A DNA stretch of 33,378 nt from a virus. The notes beneath the pieces were generated by a model, which made no database searches, was not told the origin of the DNA, and was given only the letters and a program-made list of their open reading frames with translations. Below, in pieces: positions 170 to 6,062 of the stretch. A program made the translations under genes and the position numbers. Location of the stretch: positions 1-33,378 of the IMG/VR virus record IMGVR_UViG_3300030104_002790; one strand, written 5' to 3'. Positions within the stretch are counted from its first letter, which is position 1. Each line of letters begins with the position of its first letter.

Positions 170-340
170 TTACAATACAAATCCAAATTCTTCACGGGCA
201 ATTTTCTTGTAGGCACCACCTGGATTTTCCTCACGGATACCTTTAATAGTATTCAGTTTTTGATAAAGGGCAGCGTCTCCACCAAGGCGAAGGGCACTGA
301 CAATCGTAGCAAGTTCTTTATCGTTAATAGGAAGTTCCAT
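170..340 (-). CDS. 56-residue conserved small protein between gp43 and uvsX
   Basis: A short open frame starts at ATG 338-340 and stops with TAA at 170-172. Its start overlaps the gp43 stop by one base (TAATG), a typical coupled junction in this genome. The protein opens MELPINDKELATIVSALRLG and ends ARREFGFVL-like (AREEFGFVL). It has an amphipathic helical look, with a central GGDAALYQKL segment and no membrane segment or cysteine. I do not recognise a domain. Its position between polymerase and recombinase genes suggests a small replication accessory protein, which is inference only. The reading frame is clean and fills the gap exactly, so the gene is likely real. Confidence 0.72.
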   Translation of the reverse strand: MELPINDKELATIVSALRLGGDAALYQKLNTIKGIREENPGGAYKKIAREEFGFVL

Positions 341-2835
341 TAGGAGAAAAATAATTCCAGGTTTACAGTTTTTTCGACATTCCAGCCGATGGCATCCAAA
401 ATGGATTTCAGTGGTTCCAAAAATGACTTATCAAATTGTAGGTCATAATCAATGTATTTGTCAATGTCAAGTTCCTTTGGAAAGTCTTGGATGAACGAGA
501 TAACATTCTCATGCATTGGGTTCGGTTTCTTCAAATAACAGAACTTAATTTTCTCACCATTTTTGATGAGTGAGTATTTGTTATCCAGTTTGTTCTTCTT
601 GATATAGTGATTAAAGAGCAATGCTCCGCGACAATGAATGGGTGTGCCTTTGATGTATATACTAGAAGAAGATTTGTATTTTACTACATCAGAAACAGAT
701 CTTGGGAATGAGATTTGTTCTGGTGGGAGACTCTTAAACTCAGCACGAGACCGGTCAATAAAGTCAATCACATCCTCCTCTGTGCCACTCATCATTATAT
801 TCAAGGCATCCTTAATCATCTTTCTGCATGGAGCAGGGGTAGATGATTTTACTGCCTCAATACCCATCATCTTAAGTTTGGGTTCAGAATACTGAACTCC
901 CTCACTGTTCCATACGTTGAGAATGTATCGCTTCTTCGCGGTCCAGATACCACGATCAGCAATATTCTCACGCTTCATTTGCATTTTCTGATCATACGCC
1001 GATACATACGACGCCAATTCCCCATAACACTTATCGATGTACGGTTCCAACTTATCCCGACAGACCGTATCAAGTAACTCCACAACCTTTGCTTTATCGC
1101 TAGACTTACTAGCAAAAAATTTATCAACAAGAGGTCCAAGATTAAGATAAATTGAATCTGTGTCAGATGCAATTACGTAGTCCTCATCGGTTGTAGACAA
1201 CAGTTTATTTAGATACTCATTCATCTTACCTTCTATCCATCTGATGGACACCTGTCCTGATAGGGTAATTGCCTCTGCATTGGCAAGTTTGTAGTACCTA
1301 AAATACTGGTTACCGATAGCGCCATAAGCAGAGTTAAGAGAGATCTTCTTAGCCATTTGGATATTGTTGCACCGGGCAATCTCTTTTTCCAGCGCCTTAG
1401 TTGGTGTCTTTTCATACTCCTGTTTTGCTTGAAGCATTTTCTTTTTAAAGATCACCCTGTCTCCATACATCTTTTCCATAAGTTCTGGTAGGAACCCACG
1501 GATATCTTTGCGATACATCGCACCATTGGCGCATACCGCATTATCCTTATGCAGTTCAAAGTTTATCTCTTCATTAAGGATTCTATCAACTGTAGCCGTT
1601 GGGTGTCTTTCGTCGAGTAATGTCTCTGGCGAGATGTTGTATTGCATAATGAGATGAGGATACAGGCTATTAAGGTCAAAAGACACCACCCAATCATACT
1701 TTCCCGGAATCGGTTCCTTGACATATGCCCCCGCATATTTTTCGTTTTTGTCGGACCTAATCTTTGGAGGGATAACAATATCCCTTTTCTTCAGATAATT
1801 GTAAATGATATTGTCCCACATGCGAACCTGATAGAACACATCCGCATAATTAACCTTAGCATCATATGCCATAGTCAATGCGAGTTCAATCAGTTTCATC
1901 TTGTCTTCCAAACGGTCAACAAGTTCTACGTCAACTATATTATATTCGATAAACTTCTGCCACCCTTTCGTATAGAAATCTTTAAAGGTGTCAAACTCAG
2001 AGTGATCAAGTTTCTTTTGACCTAACTCCACCTCAGCTATGTAGTCAAGTCGATATGACTCCTGTGCCTTGTATGTAAATTTTTTATACAAATCAAGGTA
2101 ATCCAGTTGGGTCAGACCACCAACATCAAACACGATTTGCTTTCTACCTTGAATATAAAGTTCTCCTTCCGTTACAAGACCCCAATTAGAGAAACGCTTC
2201 ATAAGTTTCTCCCCCAGAACGCGATTCAATCTTTTACAGATGTACGGAATATCAAACATCTGAATGTTCCATCCAGTCACAACATCAGGGACATCCTGCA
2301 TCCAATAACTGATGAAGTGATTTAAAAGTTCTTGTTCGGTGGGACAATGATGGTAGGTTACATTTTTCTGTTTGTTGAGGAAGGGTCTTTGTCCCCAAGT
2401 AATAATCTCCTTAGTGGTATAATCTTGAATAGTGATCGCAAGGATTTCTTCCTGAGCAGACTCTACATCAGGAAATCCATATTCAGCAGTTGTCTCAATA
2501 TCTAAGGTAACCAGTTTGATTTGATTGATATCAAACTTGATCTCATTCTCTGGATATTTTTCAGAGATGTATTGATAAATGTATCTGTCATTACCATAGA
2601 TGGAGAATCCATCTACCTCATCATACTTCTTATAAAATTCTCTACAATCCCGTACAGTTCCGGGATGAATTTCCTCTACTGATTGTCCACTTAATGTTCT
2701 ATACTTAGTATCCTTCTTTGATTTGACAAATAGGGTAGGGAAAAACTCATCACGAAATTCATATCTTCTCCCATTCTCAACGCCGCGAACCAGAACCTGG
2801 TTCCCAATCAATTGAACATTAGTATAAAACTTCAT
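340..2835 (-). CDS. 43: gp43, family B replicative DNA polymerase with proofreading exonuclease
   Basis: This 831-residue protein is the phage replicative polymerase. All expected motifs are visible. Exo I is LDIETT at residues 111-116 (D112, E114). Exo II is NIQMFDIPY at 190-198. Exo III is YNIVDVELV at 298-306. Polymerase motif A is SFDLNSLYP at 385-393, motif B is KKISLNSAYGAIGN at 496-509, and motif C is ASDTDSIYL at 556-564. It is somewhat shorter than T4 gp43 (898) but has no missing catalytic residue and no split. It works with the clamp gp45 and loader gp44/gp62 encoded elsewhere in the window. Its start overlaps the upstream 77-residue gene by four bases and its stop overlaps the next gene by one. 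Confidence 0.98.
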   Translation of the reverse strand: MKFYTNVQLIGNQVLVRGVENGRRYEFRDEFFPTLFVKSKKDTKYRTLSGQSVEEIHPGTVRDCREFYKKYDEVDGFSIYGNDRYIYQYISEKYPENEIKFDINQIKLVTLDIETTAEYGFPDVESAQEEILAITIQDYTTKEIITWGQRPFLNKQKNVTYHHCPTEQELLNHFISYWMQDVPDVVTGWNIQMFDIPYICKRLNRVLGEKLMKRFSNWGLVTEGELYIQGRKQIVFDVGGLTQLDYLDLYKKFTYKAQESYRLDYIAEVELGQKKLDHSEFDTFKDFYTKGWQKFIEYNIVDVELVDRLEDKMKLIELALTMAYDAKVNYADVFYQVRMWDNIIYNYLKKRDIVIPPKIRSDKNEKYAGAYVKEPIPGKYDWVVSFDLNSLYPHLIMQYNISPETLLDERHPTATVDRILNEEINFELHKDNAVCANGAMYRKDIRGFLPELMEKMYGDRVIFKKKMLQAKQEYEKTPTKALEKEIARCNNIQMAKKISLNSAYGAIGNQYFRYYKLANAEAITLSGQVSIRWIEGKMNEYLNKLLSTTDEDYVIASDTDSIYLNLGPLVDKFFASKSSDKAKVVELLDTVCRDKLEPYIDKCYGELASYVSAYDQKMQMKRENIADRGIWTAKKRYILNVWNSEGVQYSEPKLKMMGIEAVKSSTPAPCRKMIKDALNIMMSGTEEDVIDFIDRSRAEFKSLPPEQISFPRSVSDVVKYKSSSSIYIKGTPIHCRGALLFNHYIKKNKLDNKYSLIKNGEKIKFCYLKKPNPMHENVISFIQDFPKELDIDKYIDYDLQFDKSFLEPLKSILDAIGWNVEKTVNLELFFS

Positions 2836-4155: not shown

Positions 4156-4184
4156 ATTATATCAAGAAAAAAGAGGGGCGTCAA
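4156..4184 (-). promoter_or_regulatory. Sigma70-type promoter embedded in the hsp20 terminator, drives the gp43-uvsX operon
   Basis: Read on the minus strand, the -35 element is TTGACG (4179-4184, five of six consensus bases) and the -10 is TATAAT (4156-4161, six of six), with a spacer of exactly 17 bases. The -35 lies inside the terminator hairpin at 4172-4208 and the spacer contains its six-T tract. Transcription would start near 4149, just before the 55-residue gene. This is a host-type (early) promoter by sequence; the assignment of the downstream operon is inference. Confidence 0.75.
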
Positions 4185-4208
4185 CTGGATTTTGCCAGTT
4201 GCCCCTCT
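4172..4208 (-). terminator. Rho-independent terminator after hsp20
   Basis: On the minus strand an outer 7-bp stem (4202-4208 with 4172-4178) and an inner 7-bp stem (4195-4201 with 4182-4188) are separated by a three-base bulge at 4179-4181. The loop is six bases (4189-4194), and the hairpin is followed by six T. It lies 36 bases after the hsp20 stop. The bulge and the inner 3' arm hold the -35 element of the next operon's promoter. Confidence 0.85.
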
Positions 4209-4243
4209 GCGGCGACGATATTTAACAAGGTAGCCGCTACTAT

Positions 4244-4678
4244 TTAGAGGTAGTCCTTCCTCTTATGATACTCAGGTACGATCCTACCTAACACAACACT
4301 CAGCAACCCATCCTCAAAGCTAACTGATCTAACTTCCGTCTCGTCACTGAGGGTCCATGATCTAGTGAAAGATCTCTGAGCCATTCCTCGATGGACATAG
4401 TTTGTTCCGGTTTCTTTGTCTTCTTTTTGTCCTTCGACAAAGAGTTTTCCGTCTTGTGTGTAGACATAAACTTCTTTCTTTTTGAATCCCGCTAGAGCAA
4501 TTTCAAGTCTTGATTCTACATTACTGACTTGTACTAAATTATATGGCGGGTAATTTTGTGTTGTTTCGTGTAGGTCGAATACCCTATTTAGGTAATCATT
4601 CATACCAATACTGTTCTTAGAGATCTTATCCAAGAGCTCAGGAAGATCTGACGCAGTAAAGCGTGTGAGATTAGTCAT
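4244..4678 (-). CDS. hsp20: Hsp20-family small heat shock protein
   Basis: This 144-residue protein has the alpha-crystallin domain of IbpA-type chaperones. VESRLEIALAGFKKKEVYVY (about 54-73) opens the domain. Then come GKLFVEGQKED, the YVHRGMAQRSFTRSWTL segment and SFEDGLLSVVLGRIVPE near the end, with the usual GLL motif. The N-terminus (about 50 residues) is helical and phage-specific. Small Hsp20 proteins hold unfolded proteins in the cytoplasm, and cyanomyoviruses commonly carry one. The start has a strong site (AAGGAG eight bases upstream). It is transcribed alone, between a late-type promoter at 4738-4745 and the terminator at 4172-4208, which fits a role during particle assembly (inference). 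Confidence 0.95.
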   Translation of the reverse strand: MTNLTRFTASDLPELLDKISKNSIGMNDYLNRVFDLHETTQNYPPYNLVQVSNVESRLEIALAGFKKKEVYVYTQDGKLFVEGQKEDKETGTNYVHRGMAQRSFTRSWTLSDETEVRSVSFEDGLLSVVLGRIVPEYHKRKDYL

Positions 4679-4737: not shown

Positions 4738-4745
4738 TATTTATA
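4738..4745 (-). promoter_or_regulatory. T4-type late promoter (TATAAATA) for hsp20
   Basis: TATAAATA on the minus strand, 60 bases upstream of the hsp20 start and just past the preceding gene's terminator. It matches the T4/cyanophage late -10 element recognised by gp55-loaded RNA polymerase. It has no -35 match, as expected for late promoters. Confidence 0.6.
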
Positions 4746-4756
4746 ACACGGGACAC

Positions 4757-4781
4757 AAAAAAACGGGGTAGTGAACCCCGT
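4757..4781 (-). terminator. Rho-independent terminator after the 385-residue gene
   Basis: A perfect 7-bp GC-rich stem (ACGGGGT at 4775-4781 with 4763-4769) with a five-base loop is followed on the minus strand by seven T. It starts 18 bases after the stop of the gene at 4799-5956, isolating it from hsp20. Confidence 0.88.
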
Positions 4782-4798: not shown

Positions 4799-5956
4799 TC
4801 AGAAAAACTTTTTGTCAGCAAGGTCCCCCAATACTGGTTTCATTATCGGAGAAGCTCCTGCAAGAAATTTATTCCAAGCAGTGCTATCAGAACCCTCAAA
4901 TGGAATAGCAGTTTTGTGATTTCCCTTGATGACCATTCGATCAAAAGCAACTTCACGTTCACAAAAACTATTGTAGAGATTTACAAAGCGAGCGACAAAT
5001 GGTTCGTTTCCTTTAATGATGCCATTACCTTCAACAATATCAGATTGTTTCAGACTTTTTGCTTTTGGATTCACTTGTCGATGAGTGGGACCATAATCAA
5101 TAAAATACCACTTCATCATCAAAGAGAAAGAATCAATTTGATTCTTTTTATCAATCCAATCAATATACTCATGAAAGGTTTTCAGGAAAAGAGAACCTGC
5201 AACAGTTGCATTTCCTTGTACCTCTGTAGCACACTTCCACTTGGTAAATGCAGTAAGATACTTTGAGGTATACTCTTCTCCAGCAAGTTTTCTTGCTGTG
5301 GTCATATAAGAGTGTGATGGGCATACAAATTCAGCACCATCAAGAGTTCCAGCGATACCGATTTTAAATGGTTTGAGATACTCAAACAACTCCACCGCCC
5401 AAGTTTCCTTTGCATAATAAGCAGATTTAAATTTATCATCACCACTTTGATTGGTGCGATAATTGCAATCAGTGTTATGGTCTAAAGACTCAATACGGAT
5501 CATTTCTTCGTAAGATAAATTCTTACGATGAAGTTTTAAAGAGATAACAACTCTTGCATCAGGATTGCGTCCACAAGCATATCTCTTTGATGCGCGGTTG
5601 TTTCCCTTAGTCAATACAATCTTGAGTTCGGGTCGGCAATATGCAGACAAAGTATCTGCTGCATCATTTGAGTATCCGCCACGATTCTCAATATGACGTT
5701 TCTGATTACCATATCGAAGTTCATCAATACGGTTATAAGTAGGATCGCTCCAGAGATCACCGACTCTACCAGAACATATGACGGTAGATCCCTCAGCAAT
5801 TTCTCCAGAGTTGTATTTTTCAATTACGTCTTCCATAAGAGGAAGACCCTCTGGAGCATTGTCTATGGTTCCAAAACCTTGTAAATACTCTTTTGTCTTT
5901 TCATCTACTTTGTTTTCATAACATTCGTAGACGCGAAGCAATTCCTTAAATGCCAT
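4799..5956 (-). CDS. 385-residue protein with a possible ParB-like N-terminal domain; monocistronic
   Basis: I do not firmly recognise this protein. Residues 60-143 follow the layout of ParB/sulfiredoxin-fold domains. A strand leads into DPTYNR (71-76), then an I..(R)GG segment (89-94), then IVLTKGNNRASKRYACGRN (113-131) where ParB proteins have their conserved G-H/N-R turn, then VVISLKLH. The rest (HNTDCNYRTNQSGDD, later FKIGIAGTLDGAEFVCP, and a helical C-terminus) gives no motif I know. GGAGG lies upstream of the ATG at 5956. The gene has its own perfect-consensus promoter (6034-6062), a 5' leader hairpin and its own terminator, so it is probably an early gene acting alone. A DNA-binding or nuclease role is only a guess from the fold pattern. 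Confidence 0.8.
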   Translation of the reverse strand: MAFKELLRVYECYENKVDEKTKEYLQGFGTIDNAPEGLPLMEDVIEKYNSGEIAEGSTVICSGRVGDLWSDPTYNRIDELRYGNQKRHIENRGGYSNDAADTLSAYCRPELKIVLTKGNNRASKRYACGRNPDARVVISLKLHRKNLSYEEMIRIESLDHNTDCNYRTNQSGDDKFKSAYYAKETWAVELFEYLKPFKIGIAGTLDGAEFVCPSHSYMTTARKLAGEEYTSKYLTAFTKWKCATEVQGNATVAGSLFLKTFHEYIDWIDKKNQIDSFSLMMKWYFIDYGPTHRQVNPKAKSLKQSDIVEGNGIIKGNEPFVARFVNLYNSFCEREVAFDRMVIKGNHKTAIPFEGSDSTAWNKFLAGASPIMKPVLGDLADKKFF

Positions 5957-6033: not shown

Positions 6034-6062
6034 ATTATAAGGGAAAACCCCAGGAATGTCAA
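6034..6062 (-). promoter_or_regulatory. Perfect-consensus sigma70 promoter for the 385-residue gene, inside a terminator
   Basis: On the minus strand TTGACA (6057-6062) and TATAAT (6034-6039) are separated by exactly 17 bases, a 12 of 12 match to the housekeeping promoter consensus. The -35 forms the apex of the terminator hairpin at 6046-6077 that ends the upstream operon. The predicted start is near 6027, and the gene starts at 5956 after a leader of about 70 bases. Confidence 0.85.

Follow-up and report, generated by a model that had tools for sequence, protein, structure and literature searches.

Introduction

Several known kinds of viral element bear on the locus described here. Promoter early stem-loops, or PeSLs, were reportedly described by Arbiol et al. 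in 2010 and by Comeau et al. in 2014. Their occurrence in T4-like phages is cited in PMC4503421. Trans-acting small RNAs are also known from phages, and 24B_1, sar, and AgvB act on mRNAs or on a small RNA (reviewed in PMC12197685). In marine T4-like cyanophages, CfrI, manA, wcaG, and glnA have been listed as non-coding RNAs (PMC2864571, PMC12197685). Dip of phage phiKZ affects RNase E, and impaired processing or biogenesis of 5S rRNA is suspected in infection (PMC8545117). A literature search for cyanophages in connection with antisense RNAs to 5S found none, an earlier report being possible, for instance in the Syn9 transcriptome (Doron et al., 2016).

The window analyzed here is the whole stretch of 33,378 nucleotides of the IMG/VR virus record IMGVR_UViG_3300030104_002790. 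It carries what looks like a small-RNA gene, apparently not described before, that is present once per genome in most of the marine cyanophages examined.

Organization of the Locus

All parts of the element lie on the minus strand (Table 1), on which hsp20 is followed in order by CTAAATA, GTAGC, the leader, the terminator hairpin, the T tract, TATAAT, small ORFs, and gp43. From what is known of T4, we take CTAAATA to be a late promoter of the gp55 type.

Table 1. Features of the element and its neighborhood in the window.
Feature	Position	Strand	Remark
gp43 DNA polymerase	340..2835	-	
First small ORF downstream of the early promoter, 55 codons	3967..4134	-	
-10 box TATAAT	4161-4156	-	extended: TG at 4164-4163, one base upstream
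-35 box TTGACG	4184-4179	-	in 3′ arm of hairpin and bulge
T tract, T6	4172-4167	-	
Intrinsic terminator hairpin	4172..4208	-	AGAGGGGC-AACTGG-CAAAAT-CCAGTT-(GAC)-GCCCCTCT
Hairpin bulge GAC, 3 nt	4182-4180	-	
Hairpin loop CAAAAT	4194-4189	-	
Predicted small RNA, 69 nt	4167..4235	-	predicted +1 = G4235; end in T tract
Leader GGCTACCTTGTTAAATATCGTCGCCGC	4209..4235	-	GGCTACCTTGTT (4235-4224) + AAATATCGTCGCCGC (4223-4209); antisense to host 5S rRNA
Conserved leader part AAATATCGTCGCCGC, 15 nt	4209..4223	-	exact reverse complement of WH7803 5S rRNA
GTAGC spacer, 5 nt	between CTAAATA and predicted +1	-	
CTAAATA, presumed late-type (gp55) promoter	4241..4247	-	encloses TAA stop of hsp20 (4246-4244)
hsp20 (PHROG 432)	4244..4678	-	
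TATAAATA, likely late promoter of hsp20	4738..4745	-	

The first-pass annotation had described a sigma70-type promoter fused with the hsp20 terminator upstream of a gp43-uvsX operon, and its anatomy is borne out by the coordinates. TTGACG and TATAAT are found exactly where it placed them, 17 bases apart; TT of the -35 box belongs to the inner stem, GAC is the bulge, and the final G closes the outer stem, while the spacer extends over the T tract. The fold of the terminator region (z = -3.2) is better than those of all 200 shuffled sequences, and T6 follows it directly. Downstream lies gp43, and the left edge of the window holds a reading frame that, judged by eye, is presumably the beginning of uvsX. 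The opposition of a late hsp20, with a TATAAATA of its own, and an early gp43 operon is a fair reading of this arrangement. TTGACG-17-TATAAT is one of only four sites with 11 of 12 matches in the first 20 kb, besides one with 12 of 12. The latter, a perfect TTGACA-17-TATAAT at 6034-6062 (minus strand), is the sole such site in those 20 kb and lies directly upstream of a 385-aa ORF at 4799-5956. A perfect hairpin at 4763-4781 has T-rich tails on both strands, though its neighbor genes are on the minus strand.

Across related cyanophages, both the pairing of the hairpin and the promoter are conserved. A -10 box with at least 4/6 matches is located 17-18 bp from TTGAC in 106/106 metagenomic copies with enough downstream sequence, the spacing being 17 bp in 104 of them and the matches at least 5/6 in 94, in a set retrieved with a hairpin-core anchor that itself contains TTGAC. 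Of 16 isolate genomes read by eye, 11 have the terminator and the early promoter fused; the remaining five (S-PM2, Syn9, S-SM1, S-RSM4, and S-RIM44) have the late promoter, leader, and hairpin without a -35 box or early promoter, and in some metagenomic copies another late promoter occupies the place of the early promoter downstream of the hairpin. The fusion is real and conserved, but the overlap is not an essential part of the element, because the element persists without it; the early promoter is an add-on and not the core. The first-pass annotation made no mention of the late promoter that immediately precedes the hairpin, nor of the conserved leader, which is complementary to 5S rRNA.

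An asymmetric bulge in the hairpin co-occurs with the -10 box (116/7 versus 31/14; Fisher p 5e-5, an optimistic value given that the sequences are related), an association that fits, suggestively, with a bulge existing to house TTGAC. The GAC bulge would thus be present because the 3′ arm also serves as the -35 box. Two copies, L161 and L178, have TATAAT in place of the T tract, followed by a second, displaced, and separate terminator. A similar TTGAC-in-terminator layout, possibly convergent, is seen in T5-like Salmonella phages (L013, 1501-1541; weak blastn match), and this likeness was set aside, the blastn match being weak and the covariance model described below finding no match.

Conservation and Gene Settings

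IMG/VR was scanned twice independently, with an anchor on the hairpin core that was blind to the leader and with an anchor on the late promoter and leader that was blind to the hairpin. The core-anchored scan found TATCGTCG upstream in 102 of 107 copies; in 74 of these 102, TAAATA stands at one fixed distance, 8 nt before TATCGTCG, and canonical late spacing occurs only there. The leader-anchored scan yielded 139 places; the exact core was present in 68 of them, and inspection showed a stem-loop in each of the remaining 71, among which are L161 and L178. In the family alignment, 10 of the 13 pairs of the hairpin change on both sides with pairing kept, and covariation reaches 0.384 against 0.155-0.213 for slid pairings. 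The apical sequence of the hairpin is conserved beyond base pairing, and the leader, which is located outside the early promoter, equals or exceeds the hairpin in conservation.

In T4, TATAAATA occupies -13 to -6, and therefore +1 should be the G of GAATATCG. In the core-anchored copies, near-invariant bases begin at this predicted +1, and positions -4, -3, and -1 are also biased. The conserved unit comprises the late promoter (TAAATA), then GAATATCGTCGNCGC from the predicted +1, and then the covarying hairpin with its T tract, and it is predicted to specify an RNA of 55-70 nt; late-promoter geometry, conservation, and the terminator together suggest the extent of the RNA given for the window in Table 1. 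Many copies, e.g., L025, L034, and L060, could form an additional small hairpin (GGC..GCC or CGTC..GACG) between leader and terminator, which appears to change along with leader position 12.

With a 101-base query, 289 cyanophage records contained the block, each at one place and most with 76-95% identity. A covariance model built from 36 diverse copies found exactly one copy in all 16 positive phage genomes and all 13 large viral contigs (29/29), and no copy in P-SSM2, P-SSM4, P-HM2, S-SSM7, T4, or one T5-like phage. Leader variants gave pattern matches only near chance in P-SSM2, P-SSM4, P-HM2, and S-SSM7, and searching P-SSM4 and P-HM2 separately with the model turned up no convincing copy. 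Within the reach of model and patterns the element is absent from these four genomes and is therefore not essential. No Rfam family matched at the gathering threshold, nor at E values up to 10. A host homologue of the whole RNA was considered and rejected, the best matches of the model in Synechococcus being only the 25-nt antisense-5S stretch.

Three gene settings are found among the isolates. First, the element lies between hsp20 and the gp43 operon in S-SM2, S-SKS1, S-CAM1, S-SRM01, and S-CAM3, in one of them with a small gene after hsp20. Second, it leads from hli or small genes to psbA-side ORFs in S-WHM1, P-SSM7, Syn33, S-8S29, S-H35, S-RIM8, S-RIM2, S-SM1, Syn9, and S-RSM4. Third, in S-PM2 and S-RIM44 it is flanked on one side by an hli-type gene or a small gene and on the other by a structural gene in convergent orientation, with no same-strand gene directly downstream.

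Complementarity of the Leader to Host 5S rRNA

The 15-mer AAATATCGTCGCCGC has exactly two exact matches in Synechococcus WH7803, both antisense to 5S genes that were confirmed as such by Rfam; the complementarity to host 5S is contiguous and specific within the host genome, as would be expected of an antisense small RNA. The 27-nt leader of the window and 5S are calculated to form a 25-bp duplex in two runs at -43.1 kcal/mol, and the leader of the copy L108 reaches -43.7 kcal/mol. All 15 bases of the consensus leader are paired, with G-U at the first, at -26.3 kcal/mol, which none of 1000 shuffled 5S sequences equaled, and its best value against 16S, parts of 23S, and two tRNAs is -16.9 kcal/mol. 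Alignment by eye with E. coli 5S would place the target region around helix V/loop E.

16S rRNA was rejected as the target, with -31.1 kcal/mol against -43.1 kcal/mol for 5S and a match confined to a small subtype. The stretch concerned, CGGCTACCTTGTTA (approximately 4225-4238, minus strand), matches the 3′ region of 16S rRNA as well, being its exact antisense over 14 nt at the site of universal primer 1492R, and the extended leader containing it is common to this subtype (e.g., L016, L091, L108, L118, and L125). A T4 equivalent was also rejected, since no T4 late promoter is followed by a convincing leader antisense to E. coli 5S.

If the pairing matters, phage leaders should vary as host 5S does. 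The 5S variants at the complementary positions in 300 host-family genomes are CTTCG, CTTTG, CGTTG, TTTTCG, TTGTCG, and CGTCGGCGC, of which CTTCG and CTTTG occur mainly in genomes of 1-2 Mb, probably Prochlorococcus. In exact scans, whose counts come from related and hence not independent sequences, T at leader position 8 occurs in 14 contigs, 13 of them with the hairpin, and A or C in seven, none with the hairpin; T at position 10 occurs in 53 contigs, all with the hairpin, with no instance of A or G; and T at position 7 is accompanied by the hairpin in 10/10. Among the host 5S counterparts of leader position 8, the T variant is common, A is present in one genome, and C in none listed, and the T variants of positions 7 and 10 are likewise found in host 5S. 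Position 8 is the strongest case because replacing G by T would disrupt the duplex with the common 5S but re-establish it with the variant, whereas positions 7 and 10 are weaker tests because C-to-T keeps G-U pairing. The leader variants pair best, or equally well, with the matching host 5S types. There are exceptions: C at leader position 9 occurs in five contigs, three of them near-identical (ATCGCCG; L474, L475, L476, L478, and L479), and no such 5S is present in 400 host-family genomes, and S-PM2 and S-RIM8 carry G at position 12, where pairing to WH7803 5S calls for C or U. Leader variation thus appears for the most part to follow that of host 5S.

Proposed Role and Alternatives

Our proposal is that T4-like cyanophages carry here a small-RNA gene in single copy. 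At late times of infection, RNA polymerase directed by the late sigma factor of the phage would initiate just after (N)TAAATA, copy the 5′ leader first, and stop at the built-in terminator. The product would be an RNA of 55-70 nt that acts in trans, its antisense segment pairing around helix V/loop E with 5S rRNA that is free or still a precursor. The pairing would most likely impede 5S maturation or entry into new 50S subunits, and marking for decay would also be possible. Where an early operon lies downstream on the same strand, the 3′ arm of the terminator would double as the -35 box of its promoter. Judged from the sequences, a trans-acting phage RNA that pairs with host 5S rRNA is rather probable; that it hinders 5S maturation or 50S assembly is put forward tentatively, being somewhat doubtful. 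For the scheme as a whole, in which a late small RNA of most marine T4-like Synechococcus cyanophages attacks the ribosome supply of the host via 5S, with leader variants adapted to the 5S types of different picocyanobacterial hosts, we see even chances. Several points count against the proposed RNA: 5S in finished ribosomes is largely buried, the element is apparently missing from four genomes, leader positions 9 and 12 show exceptions, and late-promoter spacing is canonical in only 74 of 102 copies.

It seems unlikely that the locus is only a composite terminator and early promoter of the PeSL type, with a 5S likeness that is a functionless relic or a coincidence. Such a composite would account for the fusion in 11/16 isolates and in all core-anchored copies and would agree with the PeSLs of T4-like phages cited in PMC4503421, but not for a leader outside the promoter no less conserved than the hairpin, for the persistence of the element without an early promoter, for one copy per genome instead of many, or for leader variation that appears mostly to track host 5S.

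We regard as improbable a cis-acting attenuator, in which late transcripts from CTAAATA would run on past the hairpin into gp43 or genes of the psbA region and the sensed molecule might be free 5S. The position of the element upstream of such operons in most genomes would suit it, but the fold gives no sign that leader and terminator pair with each other in an alternative way, and the next gene in S-PM2 and S-RIM44 is convergent. The prospects are just as slim for 5S pairing that merely stabilizes the RNA or carries it to the ribosome, where the conserved CTGGCAAAATCCAG hairpin would act: conservation of the apical sequence beyond base pairing speaks for this, but several lineages have a different apical sequence (ATGACAAGACCAT, CTGCCAAATAACAG) and yet keep the leader. 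A DNA-level element, such as a site of recombination or replication whose sequence is shared with host rRNA operons, is very improbable, for although three gene contexts imply that the element or its flanks were shuffled, hairpin covariation and a conserved block that opens at the predicted RNA start are signs of RNA.

Comparison with Known Systems

If a late phage RNA does pair with host 5S as proposed, RNA instead of protein is the means by which a widespread group of marine viruses acts against the production of ribosomes in the host, and the sequence of the leader would offer a clue to host range. S-PM2 and Syn9, published infection systems on Synechococcus for which RNA-seq has reportedly been published (Puxty 2018 and Doron 2016, respectively), carry the predicted gene, at 124971-125027 in S-PM2 and 164132-164185 in Syn9.

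Like a PeSL, the element belongs to T4-like phages, unites a terminator stem-loop with an early promoter of the sigma70 type, and is placed in modular fashion; such a promoter joined to a terminator stem-loop is present in the window and in the core-anchored set. PeSLs, however, are characterized by many copies per genome as recombination points, whereas here there is one match in each of the 29 sequences; the element also has a conserved leader and a late promoter, exists without an early promoter, and its leader is antisense to 5S. With 24B_1, sar, and AgvB it would share the use of a short phage RNA base-pairing with another RNA, as predicted here, but the cyanophage element matches ribosomal RNA instead. 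It differs from CfrI, manA, wcaG, and glnA in having no Rfam match, in not being antisense to psbA, and in not resembling a riboswitch-like 5′ UTR. A possible effect on host 5S biogenesis would be common to the element and Dip, although Dip is a protein and its effect on 5S is indirect. Phage small RNAs as such are already known, and the novelty would lie in the target class, with a viral RNA directed against a host ribosomal RNA.
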